Shown one piece after another: positions 2,572 through 14,238 of a stretch of DNA of 64,000 nucleotides (position 1 is the first letter of the stretch; each line of letters opens with the position of its first letter). This DNA comes from Pseudomonas sp. PDNC002 (GTDB lineage Bacteria; Pseudomonadota; Gammaproteobacteria; Pseudomonadales; Pseudomonadaceae), in NCBI RefSeq assembly GCF_016919445.1, contig NZ_CP070356.1, positions 3,364,001 through 3,428,000 on the forward strand, read 5' to 3'. The position numbers were made by a program, and so were the translations under genes. The notes under the pieces are model-generated. The model saw nothing but the letters and a program-made list of their open reading frames with translations, was not told where the DNA came from and searched no databases.

Positions 2572-5295
2572 ATGACGACCCTGACCACCCTCCCGCAGCA
2601 GCCGATGCCGCTGCTGCGGACCAAACTGTTCCCGCCGCGCACCGACAGCGATTCGCTGCTGCCGCGACGCGCGCTGATCGACCGCCTGTATGCCAACCGC
2701 CAGCAGCGCGTGCTGATCCTCAGCGCGCCGGCCGGCTTCGGCAAGAGCACCATCCTTAGCCTGTTCAGGCAGCGTCTGAAGGAAGATGGCCGGAACGTGG
2801 CCTGGCTCTCCTGCGACGAGGGTGACAGTGAGCCGCAACGCCTGGTGCAGTACCTGGTGGCGAGCATCCGCAGTGTCGAGGAAGGGTTTGGCGCCAACAC
2901 CTCGAACCTGCTGCAATCGGACATGACGCTGCCGCTGGAAGGCATCATCGACGCCTTTCTCTCCGACCTGTCCCGCCTCGACGGCCCGCTGTACCTGTTC
3001 CTCGACGATTTCCACCAGATTCGCCATCCCGCGCTGGCCCACGGTGCGCGCTACCTGATCGAGCACCTGCCGGACAACATCCGGCTGGTCACCAGCACCC
3101 GCTATCGCCCGCGTTTCCTGGTGGATGAGCCGGGCCTGGCGCCCTGGGCCTTCTGCCTGAGCGGCGACGATCTGCGCCTGACGCGCGAGGAGACCGATAC
3201 CTACCTCACCGAGCTGAAGGGGCTGGCCCTGACCGACAGCGAGTTGAAGCTGCTGCACAAGCGCACCGAAGGCTGGATCACCGCGCTGCACCTGGCCGCA
3301 CTGGCGCTGGCGCGCAACCCGGATCGCGCCGGATTTCTCAAGGGCCTGAGTGGTACCGAGCGCGACCTCGCCGATTATCTCGCCGAGGATGTGCTGCGCA
3401 GTCTCCCCGAATCCCTGCAGCAGTTCCTCGACCAGACCTCGGTGCTGGACGAGTTCTGTGCCGAACTCTGCAATGCCCTGACCGGCCGCCGCGACGGTCT
3501 GGACATGCTGATGCGGCTGCAGAACGAGCAGTTGTTCATCATTCCGCTGGACGACCAGCGCGAGTGGTTCCGCTACCACCACCTGTTCGCCGAGTTTCTC
3601 CAGGGCCGCCTCGCCCGCAACTCCGACCCGACGCCGCTGCTGCACGCCGCTGCGCGCTGGTGCGAGAGTCGCGACATGGCCGACCGGGCGATCAAGTACG
3701 CCCTGCGTGCCCGTGACTATGCCTTCGCCGCCGACCTGCTGGAGCGCCAGGGCGCCAAGCTGATCGCCGGCAACCGCGTCTACGGCATCCTCGGCATGCT
3801 CGGCAGCATTCCCGCCGAGGTGATCCGCGAGCATCCGGTGTTCCAGATCTTCTACGCCTGGCAACTGGCCTTCGAGCAGAAGTTCGCCGAGGCCGAGGCG
3901 CTGATCGAAGAGCTCAGTGCCCGCCTGTTGCAAGGGCAGGGCAAGGTCCGGCATTTCGGCATGGCCGAGTTGCTGGCGGTGGCCCAGGTGCTCAAGGCGC
4001 TGGTGTTGCTCTACCAGGACAAGCTGGAAGCCTGCCTGAAGGTGGCGCGCCAGTGGCTGGCGCTGGTGCCGGGCAACCAGCCGGTGTTCCGTGCCAGCCT
4101 GTCGTGCATCCAGGCGGCGGCCTATGCGCTGCTGGGGGATTACGCCGAAGCGGCGAACGCCATCGGTGTCGCCCGCGATTGCCTGCGCATGGCGGACAGC
4201 GAGTACTTGCAGGTCGTGGTCAGCATGATCGAGGCGCTGATCTGCAAGGAGCGTGGCGAGCTGGAGCGTGGCCGGACCATCGCGGAAAGCGCGCGCAGTC
4301 GCGTGGAGCGGGTCTTCGGCCGGCGCAGCCGGGTGGGCGGGCCGCTGTCGCTGGCCTATGCCGACCTGTTGTATGAGCAGGATCGCCACGCCGCGATCCT
4401 CGCCGAATTGCCGTTGGCCACCACCTGGCGCGACGTCGCCACGCCGGTGGAGCTGATCAGCCGCGGTCAGTTGGTGATGGCCAAGGCGCGATTCTTCGCC
4501 GGCGAGGCCGAACAAGGGTTGGCCCAGCTCGACGAATGGCTGGTTGGCCTGCAGTCGCCGGGCTATGAGCGGGTGCATGCGCTCGCCATGAGCTGCAAGG
4601 TGCAGCTGTTGCTGTGGATGCGCCGGCCGAACGAGGCCGAGCGCGTTTGCCTGCAGCTTGCGCGGCATCTTGCCGGGCTCAACGCCGAGCGCTATGCCGA
4701 TGCCCATGCGGCGCTGGTCATGGCGGAGGCGCGCCTGGCGCTTTCCGAGCGCCACGCCGAACGCGCGCAGCAACGCCTGGAGTCCTGCCTGGCGGGCTTC
4801 ACCTCGGCCTATCAGCGCGACCGGCGGCTGCGTCTGTCGCTGTTACTTTCTGTGGCGTATTGGCAGAAAGGTAACAGCGAAAAGGCCTTCGCTCTGTTCG
4901 CCCCCACGCTGGAAGAGGCGTGGAATCTGGGCTATCGCCGGCTGTTCCAGGACGATGCCTTGTGGTTGCTGCCGCTCTGGGAGGCCTGGAAAGCGGCGGA
5001 GCCCAAGCGCGCCTCGGCCTGGCAGGGGGTGGCGGAACTGCTCCGAGAACAATGCCGCAGGCTGTCCGTCGATCCGGAAAGTTTCGATGAAAATCAGGAT
5101 GTTAGCCATCGCGAGCGGGAGATCCTGCGGCTCGTGGCGGCGGGTTTGTCGAACCGCGATATCGCCCAGGCGGTGCACTTGTCGGAGGCCACCATCAAGT
5201 GGCATCTGCACAACCTGTTCGCCAAGCTCGGCGTACGCAGTCGGACCCAGGCGGTACTCAAGGGGAAGAGTCTGGGATTGCTCAGCGAAGCCTGA
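2572..5295 (+). CDS. MalT-like LuxR-family ATP-dependent regulator
   Basis: Complete 907-residue paralogue of the preceding gene. The N-terminus (PLLRTKLFPPR) is typical of the family, followed by a Walker A motif SAPAGFGKST near residue 50 and a Walker B-like LYLFLDDFHQ near residue 140. A long helical repeat region leads to a C-terminal LuxR HTH (HREREILRLVAAGLSNRDIA, then ATIKWHLHNLFAKL). ATG at 2572 lies two bases after the upstream stop, which suggests translational coupling. Two full-length MalT-like proteins in tandem ahead of one operon is unusual; they may act together or answer different signals. Regulation of the downstream genes is inferred from adjacency only. Confidence 0.93.
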   Translation: MTTLTTLPQQPMPLLRTKLFPPRTDSDSLLPRRALIDRLYANRQQRVLILSAPAGFGKSTILSLFRQRLKEDGRNVAWLSCDEGDSEPQRLVQYLVASIRSVEEGFGANTSNLLQSDMTLPLEGIIDAFLSDLSRLDGPLYLFLDDFHQIRHPALAHGARYLIEHLPDNIRLVTSTRYRPRFLVDEPGLAPWAFCLSGDDLRLTREETDTYLTELKGLALTDSELKLLHKRTEGWITALHLAALALARNPDRAGFLKGLSGTERDLADYLAEDVLRSLPESLQQFLDQTSVLDEFCAELCNALTGRRDGLDMLMRLQNEQLFIIPLDDQREWFRYHHLFAEFLQGRLARNSDPTPLLHAAARWCESRDMADRAIKYALRARDYAFAADLLERQGAKLIAGNRVYGILGMLGSIPAEVIREHPVFQIFYAWQLAFEQKFAEAEALIEELSARLLQGQGKVRHFGMAELLAVAQVLKALVLLYQDKLEACLKVARQWLALVPGNQPVFRASLSCIQAAAYALLGDYAEAANAIGVARDCLRMADSEYLQVVVSMIEALICKERGELERGRTIAESARSRVERVFGRRSRVGGPLSLAYADLLYEQDRHAAILAELPLATTWRDVATPVELISRGQLVMAKARFFAGEAEQGLAQLDEWLVGLQSPGYERVHALAMSCKVQLLLWMRRPNEAERVCLQLARHLAGLNAERYADAHAALVMAEARLALSERHAERAQQRLESCLAGFTSAYQRDRRLRLSLLLSVAYWQKGNSEKAFALFAPTLEEAWNLGYRRLFQDDALWLLPLWEAWKAAEPKRASAWQGVAELLREQCRRLSVDPESFDENQDVSHREREILRLVAAGLSNRDIAQAVHLSEATIKWHLHNLFAKLGVRSRTQAVLKGKSLGLLSEA

Positions 5296-5524: not shown

Positions 5525-5980
5525 ATGAAAATCAAGCAACTGGTTCTTGCAAGCGCAGTTCTGGCCGCTCCGTTCCTGGCACATGCCGACATGAAATCCA
5601 TGGATGACGCTGCACTGTCCGGTATCACCGGCCAGGACGGCATCAGCATTTCCGGTACCTTCAACGCCTCCATCGGCGCCGTCACCTACAAGGACGCCGA
5701 CGCCGGCGGTGGTTCCCTGGTCCTGCAGGGTATCCACCTGCCGAGCGTGACCATTGCCGACAACGCCCCGATGACTGTCGACGTGGTGACCACCAACATC
5801 ACCCCGGCCGGTGGCGGCACCGCTGTTGCAACCCAGCAGCTGGCCATCGGCCTGCCCACCGTGACCGGCGACGTCACCATCGACGCCGTCAAGGTTGGCA
5901 CCACTGGCGCCAGCATTGGCTCGCTGACCGTATCCAACCTGAACCTGGCTGGTTCGACCGTGAAGGTCTGGGGTCACTGA
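5525..5980 (+). CDS. Small secreted FilA-like (DUF6160-type) protein
   Basis: 151-residue exported protein. It has a clear signal peptide (MKIKQLVLAS..., probable cleavage after AHA at residue 21) followed by a short motif, DDAALSGITGQDGISI, at residues 27-42. That motif recurs at the N-terminus of FilA-like and other DUF6160-type proteins as I know them. The rest is rich in Gly, Thr, Val and Ala with alternating hydrophobic residues, as expected of a beta-rich secreted or surface protein. First gene of a five-gene operon, with a strong hairpin directly after it. The name follows similarity to Acinetobacter 'fil' gene sets recalled from memory. A pilus role is not shown by the sequence. Confidence 0.75.
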   Translation: MKIKQLVLASAVLAAPFLAHADMKSMDDAALSGITGQDGISISGTFNASIGAVTYKDADAGGGSLVLQGIHLPSVTIADNAPMTVDVVTTNITPAGGGTAVATQQLAIGLPTVTGDVTIDAVKVGTTGASIGSLTVSNLNLAGSTVKVWGH

Positions 5981-6004
5981 TCCCGAGGTTGTACGCGCGG
6001 TAAC

Positions 6005-6028
6005 CCTTGCCGGCGTTCGCCGGCAAGG
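6005..6028 (+). terminator. Hairpin between first and second genes of the fil-like operon
   Basis: Perfect 11-bp GC-rich stem closed by a 2-nt spacer (effective GTTC tetraloop), with a short, poor T-tract. It sits 24 bases after the first gene's stop and 30 bases before the second gene's start. It probably acts as a partial terminator or a 3' end stabiliser, giving more of the small secreted protein than of its partners. Confidence 0.55.
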
Positions 6029-6058
6029 TTCTTCCAGGATTGAGGAGAAGGGGGCTGG

Positions 6059-6820
6059 ATGTTCGAGATTCTGCTGGGAAGCCTGCTGGGCCTGTTCGGT
6101 TTTACCCAGGCCGTGGATACCAAGCCGCAACAGCAGGGCACAGTGAATATCTCGCAGCCGCTCACGCCCAATGGTCCCTTCCGCGAATCGGTGCAGCTCG
6201 AACCGATGAGCCAGGTGCAGTTCCGCAACGTCATTCGCCAGGCCTATGACTACAGCTGCGGCTCTGCGGCGCTGACCACGCTGCTGGACTACTACCTCGG
6301 GCGCAACCTGGAGGAGCGTCAGGTCATGGAAGGCCTGATCAAGTACGGCGAGGCCGACAAGATCGTCCAGCGCCGTGGATTCTCGCTTCTGGACATGAAG
6401 CGCTACGCCGCCGCACTCGGCTACAAGAGTGGCGGCTTCCGTGCCGAGTTCTCCGACCTGGACTCGCTCGAACACCCGGCGCTGGTGCCGATCCACTATG
6501 CCGGTTTCAAGCATTTCGTCGTGGTCCGTGATGTCTACAACGACCATGTTTTCGTTGCCGATCCTGCCTTGGGCAACATCAGTTTCACCCGCGCCCGTTT
6601 CGAGGAAATCTGGGACCAGAACGTGCTCTTCGTCATCTACCCCAGCGGCCAGGAGCCCAAGAACGCTCTTGAACTGAGGGAGAACGACCTGCGCCTGGTG
6701 GATGACCGGACCGTCAGCCTGCTGGCTTTCCGCGAGTTCCCGGAGATGAGCAAGCTCACCCAGAACCAGATTGGCGAAGCCGCCTCGAAGGGGGATGTCC
6801 AGTACATCCGGCGCAAGTGA
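6059..6820 (+). CDS. C39-family (double-glycine type) cysteine peptidase, FilB-like
   Basis: 253 residues. The N-terminus is a short hydrophobic segment (FEILLGSLLGLFGFTQA) that looks like a signal peptide or anchor. The peptidase C39 core is clear: catalytic Cys in DYSCGSAAL (about residue 64), His in HFVVVR (about 156) and Asp in VADPALG (about 170). There is no ABC-transporter or membrane domain, so this is a stand-alone protease, like those accompanying some surface-fibre systems (FapD in the functional amyloid locus is one). The obvious candidate substrate is the upstream small secreted protein, which is inference. Start at 6059 is supported by a strong GAGGAG-type ribosome-binding site. 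Confidence 0.82.
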   Translation: MFEILLGSLLGLFGFTQAVDTKPQQQGTVNISQPLTPNGPFRESVQLEPMSQVQFRNVIRQAYDYSCGSAALTTLLDYYLGRNLEERQVMEGLIKYGEADKIVQRRGFSLLDMKRYAAALGYKSGGFRAEFSDLDSLEHPALVPIHYAGFKHFVVVRDVYNDHVFVADPALGNISFTRARFEEIWDQNVLFVIYPSGQEPKNALELRENDLRLVDDRTVSLLAFREFPEMSKLTQNQIGEAASKGDVQYIRRK

Positions 6821-6868
6821 TTGCCCGATCGGCCCATACGAATAAGAACAAGACCAGGGGATAGCGAG

Positions 6869-7873
6869 ATGGATTTGAAGGGGTTTGCGTGCGTTGCCGC
6901 TCTGGCCTTGCTGGCCAGTACAGGCGCCGTGGCGGAAGAGAAGTCGTCCGAGGATGCGCGCGATGCACTGGCCAAGAAGGATAGCGACGCCGACAGCGCC
7001 AAGGCGCTGGAGGAAGTCTTCCAGGCTGCGGAGAAGAGCTACACCCTGCTCAAGAAGGGCGAGCGCCAACTCACCTACGGACTGGACTACTCGCTGATGC
7101 GCGACACCCGCATCCAGGCGGTGCGCACCGGCCAGAACGTCTACAGTGTGCTGGCGCAGAGCGAGGCGCAGCACACCTTCACCAACTCCTTCACCTTCGA
7201 TTACGGCATCTGGGACAACCTGACCTTCAGCATGCGCCTGCCGTTCGTGGCGAAGTACGACACCGAGCGCGATATCCACGCCTACAGCCTGGGTGACATT
7301 TCCGCGACCCTGCGCTGGCAGCCCTGGGCGGCTCGTCGCGGCGCACCGGTCACCACCCTCTACGCGACCCTGGGGTTGCCCACCGGCGACAGCCCCTACG
7401 ATACGAACGTGGCCAGCGACGTATCCACCGGCAGTGGTTACTACAGCCTGGGCGGCGGCGCCAACATGTCCTACGTGATCGACCCGGTCGTGCTCTACGG
7501 ATCGCTGGGTTACACCTACAACATGAAGGTCGACAACATCCACCAGAACCAGTACGGCGAAGAACTCCAGAAAGTGGTGCCGGGCGACACCATCAACTTC
7601 GCCATGGGCATGGCCTATGCCCTGTCCTACGACGTGTCGCTGGCCACTTCGTACCAGATGGCCTACTCGTTCAAGAACAAGTACTACTTCAACGACCGCA
7701 CGGTAGAGGCGCCGGAACAGACCAGCGCGATCATGAACTTCTCGCTCGGGCTGCGAACGTCACCCGACTACATCGTCAACGTGAACGCCGGTTTCGGTCT
7801 GACCGAAGACTCGCCGGATGTACTGCTAGGGCTTTCCCTTCCCCTGGATATCCAAGGCCTCAAGGCCCAGTAA
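6869..7873 (+). CDS. Outer-membrane beta-barrel protein (transporter-like), FilC-like
   Basis: 334 residues with a signal peptide (MDLKGFACVAALALLASTGAVA). A short charged helical segment rich in Lys, Asp and Ala follows (about residues 25-65). The remainder alternates polar and aromatic/hydrophobic residues with many Tyr, Gly and Asn, as in outer-membrane barrels of the 'phenol-degradation MetA' transporter-like group. I chose the ATG at 6869, since the upstream TTG at 6821 would place extra residues before the signal peptide. It starts 48 bases after the peptidase gene and precedes the FadL-like gene by 18 bases, so it belongs to the same operon. The substrate is unknown. Confidence 0.78.
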   Translation: MDLKGFACVAALALLASTGAVAEEKSSEDARDALAKKDSDADSAKALEEVFQAAEKSYTLLKKGERQLTYGLDYSLMRDTRIQAVRTGQNVYSVLAQSEAQHTFTNSFTFDYGIWDNLTFSMRLPFVAKYDTERDIHAYSLGDISATLRWQPWAARRGAPVTTLYATLGLPTGDSPYDTNVASDVSTGSGYYSLGGGANMSYVIDPVVLYGSLGYTYNMKVDNIHQNQYGEELQKVVPGDTINFAMGMAYALSYDVSLATSYQMAYSFKNKYYFNDRTVEAPEQTSAIMNFSLGLRTSPDYIVNVNAGFGLTEDSPDVLLGLSLPLDIQGLKAQ

Positions 7874-7891
7874 CCGACGAGCGACTACCAC

Positions 7892-9490
7892 ATGACTATG
7901 CGCATTTCGCCCCTCGCGGTGGCGATGGCAGGGGTGAGTCTTGGCTGGGCGACGCTCGCCCACGCTCAACTGGCGAACGATCTGACCATCGGCAACCCCA
8001 AGGCCATGGCCATGGCCAACGCGGTCACGGCCGACTCCACCGGTATCGACGCGGTGCACTACAACCCGGCCGCGCTGACCAAACTCAAGGGCCGTCAGAC
8101 GGCGATCAAGCTGATCACCGGGGTGATGGATATCCGCGCCGGCTTCCACGCACCGCCGGACTACGGCTCCTCGGCCTTCGGCCTGGACGATGACCCGGTG
8201 GCCGGCGACAGCAGCCGGACCCTGACGCCGACCATGTACCTGCCGGGCCTCGGCGGCATGACCGACATGCCGCTGCTGGTGGCCCCGCTGGCGGGCCTTT
8301 CCATCAACCCGCCGGGCTCCAAGTTCACCTTCGCCACCAACGTCTATGCTCCGCAGGCGCTGGGCTACTCGCGGGATTCGGACAGCGATCCGGGGCGCTT
8401 CGAAGGGCGCCGCGTCTCGCTGCAGCGCATCACCTACTTCTCGCCGTCGCTGGGATACCAGGTCAACGACGACCTCTCGGTGGGCATGAGCATCGGCTTT
8501 TCCCACCAGGCGATGGCGCTGGACACCGACTTCCGCAACCCCGGCCTGCTCACCGGCCTGCTGCAGACCCTGCACGACACCACCTGCGTGCCCGGCGCGC
8601 AGGAGATCGTCGAACTGGTGTTCAACGTCTGCGGTGGGCGGATCGGCCCCTACGATTCGCTGGCCAACCTCAAGCTGGACATGCAGCAGACCCTGTCGCC
8701 GAGCTACAACCTCGGCATCCTCTGGGAACCCTACGACTGGTTCGCCTGGGGCGCGACCTACCAGAGCGAGTCGCGCATGCACCTCAAGGGCAAATACCGC
8801 GTCGACTACACCAAGGACTGGCAGGGTTTCTGGTCGGGCATGCAGAACTCCGTCTTCGGCGCGTTCCTCAGTCCGCTGTTCCCCTACGGCAACGCCGACG
8901 AAGAACATGGCGTGGCCACCATGAACCTGGTCAACCCGGACAGCTTCTCCACCGGCATCAAGCTGCGGCCGTTCGACAAGTGGCAGTTCAACTTCGACCT
9001 GAAGTGGACCGATTACAGCGACTGGAACAAGTTCGAGATCGAGTTCGACAAGGAACTCGACCTGCTGCGCATCGCCAAGAACTTCGCCCCCAACGGCGCA
9101 ACCAACCACAGCATCATCCTCGACCGCGGCTACCAGGACACCTGGAGCTACGCCATGGGCATGCAGTACGACGTCAACGACCGCCTGCAATTGCGCGCCG
9201 GCTACGAGTACCGCCCCTCGGCGATTCCCAAGGACAAGGCCGACGCTCTGGTGCCGATCGGCGATGCCGATCTCTATGGCCTCGGCCTGGGCTACCAGTG
9301 GGACAAGGACACGGTCATCGACCTCGGTTTCAACTACTTCGTCTCCAAGCAGAGCATCAAGGCGGGCTCCAGCTGCAACCTGAACTGCACCGGCATCGAC
9401 AACCTGGTCTACAACCCCTACGCGGGTCTTGACGTGAATACCACGGTGAAGGCCTATATCTTCGCCATGACTTACCGCACCACCTTCTGA
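7892..9490 (+). CDS. OmpP1/FadL-family outer-membrane transport protein, FilD-like
   Basis: 532 residues with signal peptide (ends ...LAHA, then QLAND). The early segment KAMAMANAVTADSTGIDAVH, then YNPAAL, is the N-terminal signature of FadL-type long-chain fatty acid and hydrophobic-compound channels. The rest is a large beta-barrel pattern ending in aromatic residues (AMTYRTTF), as outer-membrane barrels do. There are four Cys residues in two clusters (about 230-250 and 495-505), unusual for FadL and possibly disulfide-forming. It probably moves a hydrophobic molecule across the outer membrane. Spacing to the next gene is 11 bases. Confidence 0.88.
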   Translation: MTMRISPLAVAMAGVSLGWATLAHAQLANDLTIGNPKAMAMANAVTADSTGIDAVHYNPAALTKLKGRQTAIKLITGVMDIRAGFHAPPDYGSSAFGLDDDPVAGDSSRTLTPTMYLPGLGGMTDMPLLVAPLAGLSINPPGSKFTFATNVYAPQALGYSRDSDSDPGRFEGRRVSLQRITYFSPSLGYQVNDDLSVGMSIGFSHQAMALDTDFRNPGLLTGLLQTLHDTTCVPGAQEIVELVFNVCGGRIGPYDSLANLKLDMQQTLSPSYNLGILWEPYDWFAWGATYQSESRMHLKGKYRVDYTKDWQGFWSGMQNSVFGAFLSPLFPYGNADEEHGVATMNLVNPDSFSTGIKLRPFDKWQFNFDLKWTDYSDWNKFEIEFDKELDLLRIAKNFAPNGATNHSIILDRGYQDTWSYAMGMQYDVNDRLQLRAGYEYRPSAIPKDKADALVPIGDADLYGLGLGYQWDKDTVIDLGFNYFVSKQSIKAGSSCNLNCTGIDNLVYNPYAGLDVNTTVKAYIFAMTYRTTF

Positions 9491-9501
9491 GGGCATTGGA
9501 C

Positions 9502-10686
9502 ATGCGCAGGCTGACCCTCCTGATGACTTGCCTCGCCGCCGCCGGGCTGGTCGCTCCCGCGGCGTATTCCGCCAGCGGGCGCTACCTGTCGTGGATCGAC
9601 GACAACGGCCAGGTGCACAACACCTTCGTCGACGCCACCTATGCCCAGCAGCAGCGCCAGGCGGACCGGCGCATCGACCAGAGCGACCGCGCCCGGCTGA
9701 TGGATGTCAGCGTCACCCAGTGGCCTGGCAGCAAGCCGGCGGGGGAGAGCAAGCGCCGCTATTTCACCTGGGTCGACGCCCAGGGCAACCTGCAGAACAG
9801 CTTCTATGCCGCCGGCCAGGTGGCGCCGGGGCGCGCGGACTACGTGCTGCCCAATGGCGATCATTCCGCGGAGTACATCGACGCAGAGTCCTATGAGGAC
9901 CGTGGTTTCGTCCGCAGCGAGAATGGCAGCCCCTACTTCACCTGGGTCGACGAGAAGGGCCAGGTACGCAACTCGCCGATCACCAGCGAGCAGCGCGCCG
10001 CAGCATTCCGCCGGGGCGAGCAGGGCGGTAGCCAGATCGCCTTCACCGAGGGCCGGCAGATCGATCTCAAGACCCGTCCCAGCAACCTGCCGGGGCTCGA
10101 CGGCATGGGTGAGCAGACCGATGCCATGAAGGCGCTGCTCAAGGGCAGCGGCAAGACCCTGGATGACCTCTATGTCGACCTGCAGCGGCGCTGCTGTGAG
10201 CAGATGGGCGATGGCGACTTCACCGAACTGTCCTCGGACGAGCCGCGCTACGAGGAGCTGAACAAGTTCTCGCCCAGCTTCGATTTCCCCATGGGCAAGA
10301 GCTATTTCGTGGCGATGAAGCTGCCCAGTTCGCAGCGTGTCTACGGCCTGCGCGTGCGCAGCTTCGCCAACCACCAGGTGGTCTATCCGTCGCTGCTGTT
10401 CCTCGACGAGCAGAAGCGTCCGACCCGCCTGGTGAGCGATGCGGTGTACAAGCTCAACCCCGAGACCTGGTACCGCTACGCCTTCATCGAGGGCACGGTG
10501 CCGGTGCGCGCCAACCAGGGCGAGCGCTATGTGTTGCTGCTGACCACCGACGAGGATCGCAGCCTGCAGACCCTCGACAACAAGCCCTACAAGCGGCCGC
10601 TGGAAAACCTGGCGGTGAACGAGGCGGGGATGAAGGTACGCGAGCACAGCGACCAGGGGGGCTTCGAGCTGGCTGTCGTGCGATGA
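9502..10686 (+). CDS. FilE-like exported protein with three W-x-D repeats and a MalM-like C-terminal domain
   Basis: 394 residues with signal peptide (MRRLTLLMTCLAAAGLVAPA). Three copies of a short motif, Y-[LF]-[ST]-W-[IV]-D-x-x-G-x-[VL]-x-N, lie at residues 28-40, 87-99 and 145-157. They resemble the DUF4124 core. The C-terminal part (about 225-394) begins with a CC pair and contains FSPSFDFPMGKSYF and later an LP, like the maltose-operon periplasmic protein MalM. An internal TTG at 9496 is also open, but ATG 9502 has a GAGG site overlapping the upstream stop. Last gene of the operon. Function unknown; the domain mix suggests a periplasmic or outer-membrane assembly factor. Confidence 0.75.
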   Translation: MRRLTLLMTCLAAAGLVAPAAYSASGRYLSWIDDNGQVHNTFVDATYAQQQRQADRRIDQSDRARLMDVSVTQWPGSKPAGESKRRYFTWVDAQGNLQNSFYAAGQVAPGRADYVLPNGDHSAEYIDAESYEDRGFVRSENGSPYFTWVDEKGQVRNSPITSEQRAAAFRRGEQGGSQIAFTEGRQIDLKTRPSNLPGLDGMGEQTDAMKALLKGSGKTLDDLYVDLQRRCCEQMGDGDFTELSSDEPRYEELNKFSPSFDFPMGKSYFVAMKLPSSQRVYGLRVRSFANHQVVYPSLLFLDEQKRPTRLVSDAVYKLNPETWYRYAFIEGTVPVRANQGERYVLLLTTDEDRSLQTLDNKPYKRPLENLAVNEAGMKVREHSDQGGFELAVVR

Positions 10687-10710
10687 GCTGTGCGCGGGGG
10701 CGATGCTTTT

Positions 10711-10745
10711 CGTAGGACCGAGGGGGACGCCTAGTCCTTGCTCGC
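10711..10745. repeat. Dispersed 35-bp repeat, copy 1
   Basis: A 35-base element beginning CGTAGGACCGAGGGGGACGC. A second copy with one mismatch lies at 45570-45604. Both copies are intergenic and follow a gene end. It looks like a REP-type chromosomal repeat. Confidence 0.75.
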
Positions 10746-10760
10746 GAACCGCCCAGTTGC

Positions 10761-10836
10761 GTAGGGCGCATAACGCGTCAGCGTTATCCGCCATAGAGTA
10801 TCCGGCGGATAACCTGTTCCAGGTTATGCGCCCTAC
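10761..10836. repeat. Palindromic intergenic repeat (REP/MITE-like)
   Basis: A 76-base nested palindrome. The outer arms GTAGGGCGCATAAC (10761-10774) and its reverse complement (10823-10836) match over 14 bases. Inner arms GTTATCCGCC (10783-10792) and 10804-10813 match over 10. This form is common between genes in Pseudomonas. Confidence 0.7.
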
Positions 10837-10860
10837 GGGGTTGCATCCCAGCGGTCACCC

Positions 10861-10894
10861 ATGAAAAAGCCCGGCATTTGCCGGGCTTTTTCAT
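10861..10894. terminator. Bidirectional intrinsic terminator
   Basis: Near-perfect palindrome: an A-run, GCCCGGCA, a short loop, TGCCGGGC and a T-run. It separates the plus-strand fil-like operon from the convergent minus-strand ATP-grasp gene and would terminate both. Confidence 0.85.
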
Positions 10895-10907
10895 GGAGCA
10901 GGGCCCC

Positions 10908-11894
10908 TCAGACTTCCTTCGGGTGCACGTGGCCGAAGAGCTGCTGGGAGAAGCGCACGCGCTCTTCCACGGTTTCCTTCACGCCCTTGGCTTCCAGCTC
11001 GGCGAGATGCGCCTCGACGGCATGCGTGCGCAGGGTCAGGCCGCAGTCGTTGGCGATCTGGATATTCAGGCCGGGGCGGGCGTTGAGCTCGAGGATCAGC
11101 GGGCCCTTGTCCTGGTCCAGCACCATGTCCACGCCGATGTAGCCCAGGCCGCACAATTCATGGCAGCCGGCGGCGAGCTTCATGAAGCCGTCCCAATAGG
11201 GCAGTTGCACGCCATCCACCGCGTTGGTGGTGTCCGGGTGTTTGCTGATCTTGTTGTTCAGCCAGGTGCCGCGCAGCGTCACGCCGGTGGCCAGGTCCAC
11301 CCCCACGCCGATGGCGCCCTGGTGCAGGTTGGCCTTGCCGTTGGACTGGCGGGTCGGCAGGCGCAGCATCGCCATCACCGGGTAGCCCATCAGGACGATG
11401 ATGCGGATGTCCGGCACGCCTTCGTAGCTGATGCTCTTGAAGATCTGGTCCGGGGTTACCCGATACTCGATCAGCGCGCGGTCGCGGTGGCCGCCCAGGG
11501 AGTACAGGCCGGTGAGGATGCTCGACAGTTGGTGCTCGATTTCCTCATGGCTGATGATCCGTCCGGAGACCGTCTTGTAGCGTTCCTCGAAGCGGTCGGC
11601 GATCACCAGGATGCCGTCGCCGCCGGCGCCCTGCGCCGGCTTGATCACGAAGTCGCTGCGCTCGCCGATGATCTCCGGCAGGCGTTCGATTTCCTTCTCG
11701 GTGGAGATGATCCCGTACATCTCCGGTACGTGGATGCCCGCCTCGATGGCGCGCTGCTTGGTGATGATCTTGTCGTCGACGATCGGGTACAGGTGCCGTT
11801 CGTTGTACTTCAGCACGTAGTCCGCGTTACGTCGGTTGATGCCCATGATGCCTTTGGCTTCCAGGGCTCTCCATCGCTTGATCAGGCCGAACAT
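10908..11894 (-). CDS. Alpha-L-glutamate ligase-like ATP-grasp protein (RimK-related)
   Basis: 328 residues. ATP-grasp fold related to RimK. Visible marks are the nucleotide-binding segment DFVIKPAQGAGGDGILV (about residues 83-99), GYIGVDMVLDQDKGPLILEL (about 256-275) and the metal-binding LELNARPGLNIQIAN. It would ligate an amino acid or glutamate to an acceptor carboxylate at the expense of ATP; the substrate is not evident. Last gene of a three-gene minus-strand unit with the membrane transglutaminase-like protein (3-base gap) and the retropepsin-like protease, a trio that recurs in pseudomonads. Confidence 0.85.
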   Translation of the reverse strand: MFGLIKRWRALEAKGIMGINRRNADYVLKYNERHLYPIVDDKIITKQRAIEAGIHVPEMYGIISTEKEIERLPEIIGERSDFVIKPAQGAGGDGILVIADRFEERYKTVSGRIISHEEIEHQLSSILTGLYSLGGHRDRALIEYRVTPDQIFKSISYEGVPDIRIIVLMGYPVMAMLRLPTRQSNGKANLHQGAIGVGVDLATGVTLRGTWLNNKISKHPDTTNAVDGVQLPYWDGFMKLAAGCHELCGLGYIGVDMVLDQDKGPLILELNARPGLNIQIANDCGLTLRTHAVEAHLAELEAKGVKETVEERVRFSQQLFGHVHPKEV

Positions 11895-11897
11895 GGC

Positions 11898-13433
11898 TTA
11901 GTCCTTGAGGAAGGCTTTGAAGCGGAACAGTTCGGTCAGGCGGTAACCGCGGTAGCGACCCATCGCCAGCATGAACGACACCAGGATCAGCAGCACGGCC
12001 GGGAAGGTGAACACGAAGTACACCAGCTCCGGTACGCGCATCAGCATGTGCGCGAGGGCGGCGGCGAACAGGGTGCCGATGGCCGCCTTCATGGCGTGGG
12101 CGGCGCCGCGCTCTTCCCAGGTGATCGACAGGCGTTCGATGCTCATGGTCAGGATCACCATCGGGAACAGGGCGACCGACAGGCCGCTCTCGAAACCGAG
12201 TTTGTGGCTGAGCAGGCTGATGGCGGCGATCATCACCACCACGAAGGTCAGCACCACCGACAGGCGTGGCAGCATCTGCAGCTTCAGGTGCTCCAGGTAC
12301 GAGCGGAGCGACAGGCCCAGCGCGGTGATTACCGTGAACAGGCCGATACCCCACTGCAGGCCGGTCTCGCGGAAGGCCAGGGCGATCAGCACCGGGGTGA
12401 AGGTACCCAGGGTCTGCAGGCCGATCAGGTTGCGCAGGATCAGGATCACCAGCACGCCGAACGGGATCATGATCATGATCTGGAAGGTCTGCTGGGTGGA
12501 CAGCGGCAGGCCGTACAGCGAGTACTCGAGGAAGGCGGCGTCGGTGTTCTCGTCGGACAGCTTGGCCAGGCGGATGGCGTTCATCTCGCTGCTGTTGAGG
12601 CTGAAGCTGACCTGGGCCTTCTTGCCACCTTCGATGGACAGCAGGCTCTCGTCACCCAGCCACCAGATCAGGCGGTCGTTGGGCAAGCCGCGTTCGCCGG
12701 TTTCCGGATTGAAGTACAGCCACTCCTTGCCGTTGTAGCTGCGCAGCCAGAGCTCGGGCTGCTGCGGCTGGTTGGCGACCAGACGGATGGTGTGCACGCG
12801 CTCCAGCGGCACGTGAGCCACCGCGAGCAGGGTCTCGACCACGTGGGAGCGCTTGTCCAGGCTGGTGTCGCCGGCCAGCAGCAGTTTCACGTTGTCGTCG
12901 TTGAGGTTGTTGGCGCGCTTGATGGCTTCGCTGACGAAGGTCTCGACGTCCGCCGAATGCTGGCGGATCGGCGCGATCAGGGCTTCGGCGGCGATCTTGT
13001 CCGGACCTTCCAGGGGCAGGCTGTCGCGGAAGATCGGGCCTTTCTCCTTGGCCTTCTCGCCGCTGGCACCGGCGTAGCGCTTGGTCAGCACCAGGCGGTA
13101 GTACAGGGTCTGCTGGCCGCTGGCGCGGCGCGAGGACCAGGTCACCTTGCGGTTGCCGTCGGAGCGGTTGATGCCCACTCCATAATTGTTGGAAACGAAG
13201 CTCTCGTTGAGGCTGACGTAGTCCTGGGCCAGCGGCGGTACGAACATCTGCACCTTCACCGGGGTCTTCGGCGTGGCGACGAATTCGACCTTGGCGTCGA
13301 TGTTCCACAGGTCGTCGGTCTCGGCCTCGGTCATGGGAATGCCGAGGACGAAGATCTGGTAGGCGGTGATCGCGACGCCCAGCGTCAGCAGGATGGCGAT
13401 CAGGACCTTCAGATGCAGGGTAAGAGAGCGCAT
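11898..13433 (-). CDS. Inactive transglutaminase-like membrane protein (UUP1 / 7TM type)
   Basis: 511 residues. An N-terminal membrane helix (VLIAILLTLGVAITAYQIFV) is followed by a periplasmic region of about 230 residues, then a transglutaminase-like segment (residues about 150-240) in which I do not see a Cys-His-Asp triad. About seven hydrophobic helices lie in the C-terminal half (about 265-495). It lies between the protease and ATP-grasp genes, 4 bases from the former and 3 from the latter, so translation is probably coupled. The likely role is a membrane scaffold linking periplasmic sensing to a cytoplasmic ligase. That is inference from domain layout. Confidence 0.82.
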   Translation of the reverse strand: MRSLTLHLKVLIAILLTLGVAITAYQIFVLGIPMTEAETDDLWNIDAKVEFVATPKTPVKVQMFVPPLAQDYVSLNESFVSNNYGVGINRSDGNRKVTWSSRRASGQQTLYYRLVLTKRYAGASGEKAKEKGPIFRDSLPLEGPDKIAAEALIAPIRQHSADVETFVSEAIKRANNLNDDNVKLLLAGDTSLDKRSHVVETLLAVAHVPLERVHTIRLVANQPQQPELWLRSYNGKEWLYFNPETGERGLPNDRLIWWLGDESLLSIEGGKKAQVSFSLNSSEMNAIRLAKLSDENTDAAFLEYSLYGLPLSTQQTFQIMIMIPFGVLVILILRNLIGLQTLGTFTPVLIALAFRETGLQWGIGLFTVITALGLSLRSYLEHLKLQMLPRLSVVLTFVVVMIAAISLLSHKLGFESGLSVALFPMVILTMSIERLSITWEERGAAHAMKAAIGTLFAAALAHMLMRVPELVYFVFTFPAVLLILVSFMLAMGRYRGYRLTELFRFKAFLKD

Positions 13434-13437
13434 GGGG

Positions 13438-13977
13438 TTACTCGGCAGGTTTCGCTACGGGTTGGCAGCCGGGCTTGCCGGCAGCGTATTTCAGGCTCGG
13501 GTCGACCAGTGCGCCGAACCGCTTGAGGGCATCGGAGCCGATCAGAAGCGGGTATTGGAATGCACTGCGGTCGGTAAGGTTCACCTCGATGGTGCGCAGG
13601 GCCTTGCCCATGCACAGCTCGAGTTCGATCACCGGGCGGGCGGTATAGGCCTTGCCCTCGTCGGGATCGTAGTCGCCATGGCGGCGCTTGATCTTGCTGA
13701 TGCGCGCCAGGGGTTTCTCGATCGGCTGGCTGTCGGCGGTATCGGTGGCCAGGTAGAAGCGCACCCAGGTCTCGCCGTCGCGCTTGAAGCGCTTGATGTC
13801 ACGGGCACTCAGGGAAGCGGTCTTGGCGCCTGTATCGAGCTTGGCGGCCAGCTCGATGTCCAGGTCGTTGATGCGGGCGTACTCGTTCAGGCCATAGACG
13901 GTCTTGCCGGCAGCGAGGCTGGTGCCGGATAGCAGGATAAGGCTGAAGAGGAACAGGGCTGTGGGCGTGAGTCTCAT
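13438..13977 (-). CDS. Retropepsin-like / ATP-dependent zinc protease family protein
   Basis: 179 residues with a signal peptide (MRLTPTALFLFSLILLSGTSLAA). The retropepsin-like active-site motif LDTGAKTASL sits at about residues 43-52, and later IELELCMGKALR and YPLLIGSDAL match the fold of the RimB/DUF785 group. Longer in-frame starts exist upstream, but only the ATG at 13977 puts the signal sequence at the N-terminus. No strong ribosome-binding site is visible. First gene of the protease / transglutaminase-like / ATP-grasp trio. It probably acts in the periplasm. The old 'zinc protease' name is not supported by any visible zinc motif. Confidence 0.82.
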   Translation of the reverse strand: MRLTPTALFLFSLILLSGTSLAAGKTVYGLNEYARINDLDIELAAKLDTGAKTASLSARDIKRFKRDGETWVRFYLATDTADSQPIEKPLARISKIKRRHGDYDPDEGKAYTARPVIELELCMGKALRTIEVNLTDRSAFQYPLLIGSDALKRFGALVDPSLKYAAGKPGCQPVAKPAE

Positions 13978-14238
13978 GAGTCTTGATGAGTGGGTGGCCG
14001 CAAAGCCTTGAAAAATGGTTGCCTCGGGCATGGCCCGCGAGCTGCGGGGCGGGCCATGTTCGCCAGGCGCGAGCGCGCAGAATTCTATCATGTGGTTTTT
14101 GAGTGGCGACAGTCGGTTGGCGCCAAGGCACGGTTTTGTTGCAGGCATGTGACGGTCCGACGGCCAGTCGGCCAGGGGAGGACGGCGTGCCTTGCCGGCG
14201 AGTCCAGCCGTCCAGGGGGACGGCCGGACCGCGGGGGT

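Follow-up and report, generated by a model that had tools for sequence, protein, structure and literature searches.

The operon filA-filE of Pseudomonas sp. PDNC002 raises the question of what is made by five linked genes whose profile models carry the name 'putative pilus system', when no pilus family is found among their products. It lies at positions 5525 to 10,686 of the stretch of 64,000 nucleotides analysed here (the window; contig NZ_CP070356.1, positions 3,364,001 to 3,428,000), in a source genome of 6.39 Mb in a single contig. A previous reading of the letters alone (the sequence-only reading) had described it as a self-contained envelope system, and the five open reading frames (ORFs) that it named, all on the plus strand, were confirmed. 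From what is set out below, it is probable that the operon encodes a sorting and secretion system of the Fap type, that is, one related to FapD and FapF, for a set of proteins that would be marked by a leader placed behind a Sec signal and read in the periplasm. The product would probably be surface proteins for a biofilm or pellicle, and not a chaperone-usher pilus.

FilB and FilC are homologues of FapD and FapF

The stand-alone C39 peptidase, the two barrels (one of FadL type) and the MalM-like protein that the sequence-only reading had recognised were all borne out by profiles. filB (6059..6820, plus strand) encodes a C39 cysteine peptidase of 253 residues with a hydrophobic N-terminus (Peptidase_C39, 8.1e-21; pilus_FilB, 4.5e-87), and filC (6869..7873, plus strand) an outer-membrane barrel of 334 residues from its ATG (Phenol_MetA_deg, 2.6e-7; pilus_FilC, 1.3e-92). 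Against the Fap models, E-values of 9.7e-35 (FilB with FapD) and 9.9e-18 (FilC with FapF) were obtained. Given that the scores, 119.8 and 64.1 bits, are well under the NCBI equivalog cut-offs of 330 and 700, the two proteins are called homologues of FapD and FapF and not FapD and FapF themselves. In a search of PDB sequences, FilC matched those of the FapF crystals at 1.2e-12, and the residues Gln61, Cys67, His152 and Asp168 are invariant in all 26 FilB and FapD sequences aligned. No ABC domain was matched in FilB by the profile scan.

For the AlphaFold model of FilC (pLDDT 77), built on an alignment in which 5 of the 32 rows were of FapF type, the 18 best Foldseek matches in the PDB are all chains of FapF (E 6e-19 to 3e-16), with TM-scores by target length of 0.78-0.88, and the next match is the COG4313 channel 4rl8 at 2.5e-10. 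Where FapF has a periplasmic trimeric coiled coil and a helical plug, the N-terminus of FilC has one predicted helix at residues 40-54, with pLDDT below 50 over residues 1-41. A VRGG motif with a spacing like that of double-glycine sites, seen inside the FilC barrel of three relatives (L024, L025, L036), is absent from the FilC studied here and was set aside.

The genome also contains a separate fap operon (L012), whose FapE and FapF score above the NCBI cut-offs and whose FapD matches the FilB model; its FapA, FapB and FapC are presumed from gene order and general knowledge. Four C39 domains are encoded in this genome, and as two of them are fused to ABC exporters, only FilB and FapD remain as stand-alone C39 proteins. 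Likewise, its two FapF-type barrels are FapF and FilC. The profile scan gave no match to FapB or FapC, the amyloid subunits with Asn/Gln repeats, among the five fil products.

The linkage of the fil genes is not due to chance. FilA-E were compared with the ORFs of the 33 other genomes in which a fil-type FilB is encoded. FilB and FilC were adjacent in all 33, while FilD was found in 32 (it is missing in L077) and a FilE homologue in 28. In the 80 best of 516 FilB records with named sources (Pseudomonas, Serpens, Atopomonas, Alcanivorax, Marinobacter, Kistimonas and others), FilB, FilC and FilD occur together in every one, and FilE in 79. The sequence-only reading would have been abandoned had the genes proved to be rarely linked, and the neighbourhoods show them strongly linked. 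With the FilB of Pseudomonas nitroreducens and its neighbours, that of the strain shares 97-98% identity, which makes the strain a close relative.

A leader shared by FilA and proteins encoded elsewhere

filA (5525..5980, plus strand) encodes a small Sec-exported protein of 151 residues that belongs to the DUF6160 family (PF19657, 1.7e-22) and is the proposed substrate. Beta strands are predicted in it, and its AlphaFold model is poor (pLDDT 60). Its Sec signal peptide, read by eye, covers residues 1-21 (5525..5587, plus strand), with AHA before the cut, and is followed by DMKS-MDDAALSGITGQ-DGISIS. The 12-residue segment at the centre (residues 26-37, positions -12 to -1; 5600..5635, plus strand) has the pattern of a double-glycine leader, for which the published consensus is LSX2ELX2IXGG (PMC3897388; all papers are cited here for single passages) and which is hydrophobic at -12, -7 and -4 (PMC10885120). 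Assigned from column counts over 110 DUF6160 proteins and from this consensus, the segment is the proposed recognition element of FilB, with a cut that would fall after Gln37.

Four further proteins of the same genome carry such a leader shortly after a Sec signal. They are encoded at two other sites, one with the leader LDNDRLGAVTGQ (L009) and the other a cluster of three genes (L008) with the leaders MDDEELSSISGQ, LDDDQLEEVSGA and LDDSEMADVSGQ. Because leader proteins are encoded at other sites, the operon cannot be called self-contained, and this part of the sequence-only reading was rejected. A leader model (A5) finds these five proteins at E<=2.4e-12, with the next match at 0.34; it was built from 15 rows, five of them from this genome and others from genomes that were tested, and these it matches by construction. 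No TIGR or Pfam bacteriocin-leader model matched the leader proteins scanned.

The leader was counted in 110 of 190 DUF6160 matches, namely those in the stretches retrieved, over columns chosen by a script that scores partly on the same features as are counted. Position -12 is Leu, Met, Ile or Val in all 110 and -7 is Leu or Met in all 110, while -10 is Asp or Glu in 108, -4 is Val or Ile in 87 and Ala or Met in 13 (100 together) and -2 is Gly in 106. At -1 the residue is Gln in 102 and Ala in 2, so that the usual rule of Gly, Ala or Ser does not hold there. Under a loose rule, an AxA-like Sec site precedes the leader in 109 of the 110.

Between proteins of different genomes, compared position by position and ungapped, the mean identity is 0.45 in the leader, versus 0.23 at +1 to +12, 0.12 at +13 to +24 and 0.18 in the signal core, the last value being lowered by the ungapped comparison. 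In 3030 pairs with less than 10% identity at two downstream stretches, the identity of the leader is still 0.44. Given that it is kept where the downstream sequence diverges, the leader is what these otherwise different proteins share, which are from about 140 to 884 residues long. Some pattern matches fell within FilD or in antisense frames and were discarded as false.

Some further features of these proteins were seen along the way. The L008 cluster (8575-11761, minus strand) is far from the window, and all three of its products bear the leader; in relatives, leader genes are also clustered, in groups of other sizes, with products of up to more than 800 residues. Of the DUF6160 proteins counted, 36 of 110, FilA included, end in Gly-His, perhaps a second conserved signal.

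Leader proteins occur together with FilB

A fil-type FilB was defined as a match at E<=5e-51, a split placed after the gap to the next match (4e-36) had been seen; genomes without it (FilB-negative) include those with weaker, FapD-type or ABC-type matches to the FilB model, which make up 19 of the 53 genomes that have any match. In a sample of 245 genomes from the order, 34 have a fil-type FilB, and DUF6160 is found in all 34 of these versus 1 of 211 FilB-negative genomes (Fisher, 7e-41). Counted per genus, the figures are 19 of 19 versus 1 of 90 (2.5e-20). The single exception, G052, has a weak DUF6160 match, under the cut-off, which the leader model did not find. In a sample of 397 genomes from the phylum, DUF6160 is found in 10 of 10 FilB-positive and 2 of 387 FilB-negative genomes, the two being G052 and G334. 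The latter is a distant metagenome-assembled genome (MAG), whose leader protein, with ITDKDMDDVTGQ, was seen at L258 without any FilB match.

Genomes that have a C39 protein of FapD type only (for example G131, G190, G228 and G177) showed no DUF6160. The same contrast is seen within genera. In genus g3, DUF6160 is found in 3 of 3 FilB-positive and 0 of 10 FilB-negative genomes (Fisher, 0.0035). Among 25 genomes of the genus of the strain studied here, all 22 with a fil-type FilB carry 4-5 leader proteins each, versus 0 of the 3 FilB-negative genomes (G612, G620 and G624), which keep a FapD-type C39 protein. Since the five leader genes of the strain lie at three separate sites, whole sets of leader genes seem to accompany filB where it occurs and to be missing where it does not.

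A like leader in FapE and at other C39-FapF loci

In the FapE of the same genome, the signal is followed by ESVFKPIE-LKDQELAQLRGR-YVMPG. A like segment is carried by all 14 FapE homologues in the 27 FapD-type loci examined, of which 10 were found by pattern and 4 by reading the sequence (L162, L171 and two in L107). Given this leader in all the FapE homologues examined beside FapD, FapE is the likely substrate of FapD, on the evidence of sequence. It has been reported that FapD is periplasmic, that its Cys is needed for secretion and that, of the Fap proteins, only FapE was without N-terminal peptides (PMC5557850). The target of FapD was called unclear in that 2017 study (PMC5557850), and FapD has elsewhere been 'thought to' process FapE and FapF (PMC12822426). 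The leader motif is absent from the FapD passages cited here, and a precise site in FapE can now be named for the question of where FapD cuts.

At other loci, the leader takes the plain double-glycine form. Such leaders stand beside C39-FapF pairs in L157 (VDPATLDDYRGG), L172 (LTHESLSQYRGG) and L173 (LPERELSGYRGG), and with weaker evidence for a Sec signal in L156 (VSQETLDDARGG) and L106 (IDEEALGVMRGG). In L166, the -1 residue of FapE, a weak match to its NCBIfam model (0.023), is the second G of a plain GG, and GG thus ends at -1 beside a FapD-type C39 gene in L157, L166, L172 and L173. With loose patterns and reading by eye, a leader candidate was found at 19 of the 27 FapD-type loci. With a fixed pattern applied to all 27 loci, 14 ORFs with a Sec signal plus leader were found on the strand of the C39 gene within 2 kb of it (132.9 kb, 13 loci), versus 3 in the 620.5 kb outside that zone, which is 4.7 times more DNA (Poisson, 1.3e-14, uncorrected for relatedness, with several loci coming from one family and one of the 14 ORFs, which lies in FapB, being doubtful). 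In L171, a small leader protein is encoded upstream of fapB (4895-5251, plus strand); its ISDKNLQKVTGR-GISIDF is between the leader forms of FilA and FapE.

Proposed mechanism and its alternatives

In the mechanism that we propose, FilA and the leader proteins encoded elsewhere would cross the inner membrane by Sec, as their signals suggest, and signal peptidase would leave the leader at the N-terminus, with its last 12 residues obeying the double-glycine rule and mostly Gln at -1. Given that the leader follows a Sec signal, FilB would meet it in the periplasm, where, held behind its hydrophobic N-terminus as a membrane-anchored leader peptidase, it would bind the leader, as position, co-occurrence and homology indicate, and remove it by a cut after G-Q. 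The trimmed proteins may then leave through the FapF-like barrel FilC, by analogy with FapF, with FilD and FilE as putative accessories. The same logic would apply to Fap, with the leader in FapE. We infer both the cleavage of the leader and the export of the proteins from sequence. The ABC-fused C39 proteins, of which the genome has two, were also considered as the processing enzyme and were rejected, for the leaders follow Sec signals.

Several observations speak against this mechanism. The residue at -1 is Gln and not the usual Gly, Ala or Ser; in FapE it is mostly Arg or Lys, and 3 of the 14 FapE leaders, all among those found by reading, have Gln at -4. Relative to FapF, FilC is shorter by about 90 residues, mostly in the periplasmic N-terminus. 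No leader candidate was found at 8 of the 27 FapD-type loci (L105, L154, L155, L158, L159, L160, L169 and L170), and no leader protein was detected within 4.5 kb upstream in 11 of the 80 best named FilB loci. The FapE peptides were missing over about 70 residues (PMC5557850), while the predicted cut in the FapE of this genome is after residue 40. As to the co-occurrence, it is partly inherited by descent, which was handled by genus counts and within-genus contrasts only; the phylum sample overlaps heavily with that of the order, 9 of its 10 FilB-positive genomes being common to both; G052 has its weak DUF6160 match in the absence of a fil-type FilB; and G334, a MAG that is 90% complete, has a leader protein and no FilB match.

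Some of these points would suit a different role for the leader. It might be a docking or targeting tag only, bound by FilB (or FilC), which would pass the protein to the pore uncut. Gln or Arg at -1 is indeed unusual for cleavage by C39 enzymes, and some C39-like domains that are catalytically inactive act on their substrates as chaperones (PMC5557850). Nonetheless, the catalytic Gln, Cys, His and Asp are kept in 26 of 26 sequences, secretion needs the Cys of FapD (PMC5557850), and leaders with plain GG stand beside FapD-type C39 genes, with a GA form in the genome studied here, which together make a tag of this kind unlikely. It is more doubtful still that FilB processes another product of the operon, such as FilE or the linker of FilC, with the leader serving a separate role: the linker of FapF was once proposed as a possible target of FapD (PMC5557850), but the leader motif is present in FilA and FapE, tracks the presence of FilB and fits what C39 enzymes bind.

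The sequence-only reading had offered two functions, of which display of the small protein fits the evidence. The other, sensing or uptake of a hydrophobic ligand, with FilD and FilC as import channels and FilA binding the ligand, has in its favour the FadL type of FilD, the COG4313 channel 4rl8 as the next fold match of FilC after FapF and the MalT-like regulator upstream. It is weakened by the match of FilC to FapF, which is the better of the two (6e-19 versus 2.5e-10), by the fact that FilB-FilC is the most constant gene pair, and by the several leader proteins per genome, which differ from one another past the leader; we consider it quite improbable. If the operon made a genuine pilus, the 'type III pilus' of the Acinetobacter annotation, this would agree with the NCBIfam names and with the genes A1S_0690-0695, which have been described as putative type III pili and reach high levels in pellicle cells (PMC4256060, PMC5376624). 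The profile scan of the five products at E<=1 gave no match to usher, chaperone, pilin or ATPase families, the Fil models themselves excepted, and FilB and FilC are homologues of FapD and FapF. The pilus reading was rejected on the lack of pilus families and keeps practically no probability. The sequence-only reading had rightly found no chaperone/usher, pilin or secretion ATPase here and had warned against taking the name fil as proof of a pilus.

Comparison with known systems

The processing and export of leader-marked proteins by FilB and FilC, as proposed here, has its closest counterpart in Fap. Both systems have a stand-alone C39 peptidase (periplasmic in Fap and presumably so in fil), a FapF-type barrel and Sec-exported substrates, and the leader of FapE is of the same kind as that of FilA. 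They differ in that no FapB or FapC match, and so no Asn/Gln-rich amyloid subunit, was found for fil, that fil has a FadL barrel and a MalM protein in addition, that the periplasmic part of FilC is shorter, and that several of the leader proteins of fil are encoded elsewhere.

The C39-ABC exporters of double-glycine precursors (PCAT; bacteriocins, LahT) likewise use a C39 peptidase, and a leader that is hydrophobic at -12, -7 and -4 with Gly at -2. In PCAT-type C39, a single enzyme serves many precursors, whose leader is conserved and whose cores are diverse (PMC10885120), as is proposed for FilB. Unlike these exporters, FilB is a separate protein without an ABC part, and the fil leader follows a Sec signal, whereas theirs is at the N-terminus of the precursor in the cytosol; the -1 residue is also mostly Gln.

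In the PEP-CTERM/exosortase and LPXTG/sortase systems, a dedicated peptidase co-occurs with many proteins that share a short sorting signal only. The fil system resembles them in this, and differs in its N-terminal signal, its C39 peptidase and its pore, which would be a FapF-type barrel.

The operon is taken to correspond to the fil genes of Acinetobacter from the gene names in papers, the NCBIfam profiles and general knowledge. The models of those genes (pilus_FilA-D) match better than any other profiles, and the genes share the order A-B-C-D-E, while all four matches are under the curated cut-offs (53.6/220, 291.9/475, 311.1/630 and 529.8/970 bits). In Acinetobacter, filA is up 2.7-fold with mucin (PMC5757984). 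Together with the pellicle data cited above, this would suit, by analogy, a surface product for biofilms, insofar as the genes are the same by names and NCBIfam profiles.

Layout of the operon and its surroundings

The five genes follow a gene for a MalT-like regulator of the LuxR family (2572..5295, plus strand; 907 residues; GerE, 2.4e-18; TPR_MalT, 1.5e-14), which is likely the putative regulator of the operon, and are separated by successive intergenic gaps of 78, 48, 18 and 11 bases. The sequence-only reading had named MalT-like regulators for a check of such neighbourhoods, and an ORF of this type is upstream of FilB in 61 of the 80 best named records, which are exactly L174-L234 (Pseudomonas, Serpens, Atopomonas and nearby MAGs), and in none of the other 19. 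The promoter and terminator scan gave nothing usable, with no promoter-like site and 4 terminator-like ones versus 3.2 in shuffled sequences.

filD (7892..9490, plus strand) encodes an outer-membrane barrel of FadL/Toluene_X type with 532 residues (PF03349, 3.1e-112). filE (9502..10686, plus strand) encodes a secreted protein of 394 residues from its ATG, with three DUF4124-like repeats seen by eye (the DUF4124 match, at 5.8e-4, is under the family cut-off) and a C-terminal MalM domain (PF07148, 2.8e-30). Alternative TTG starts are open for filC at 6821, which would add 16 residues ahead of the signal, and for filE at 9496. A match of FilC to the type II secretion pilotin (0.03) is at chance level. 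Downstream, a convergent trio of genes (window 10908-14148, minus strand) encodes a sugar-transfer-type ATP-grasp protein, an inactive transglutaminase fused to a seven-transmembrane part and a putative ATP-dependent zinc protease.

Implications

The sequence-only reading had missed the homology to FapD and FapF, the C39-type leader of FilA and the dispersed leader proteins. Colocalised fapD-fapF pairs have already been reported in further phyla (PMC6173800). Among the papers listed by searches of the open PMC library, which leaves preprints and most subscription papers outside, we found none with a link between fil and fap, a description of the leader or a role for DUF6160, which appears in one paper as a domain name in a list.

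A wider reading, which we favour with more reserve than that of the operon itself, is that pairs of a C39 peptidase and a FapF-type barrel form a general Gram-negative route of sorting and secretion, in which proteins exported by Sec would have a periplasmic leader of the double-glycine type cut by a free C39 enzyme before passing a FapF-type pore. Its branches would be Fap, with FapE as the leader substrate and mostly Arg or Lys at -1; Fil, whose substrates (DUF6160 and its kin) would be many and unlinked, with Gln at -1; and further unnamed branches with plain GG. DUF6160 would then be mainly a signal plus leader and not a functional domain.

A widespread operon called a 'putative pilus' would thus be re-labelled as a Fap-type secretion system, and DUF6160, together with many orphan secreted proteins, would gain a probable function and a sorting signal.

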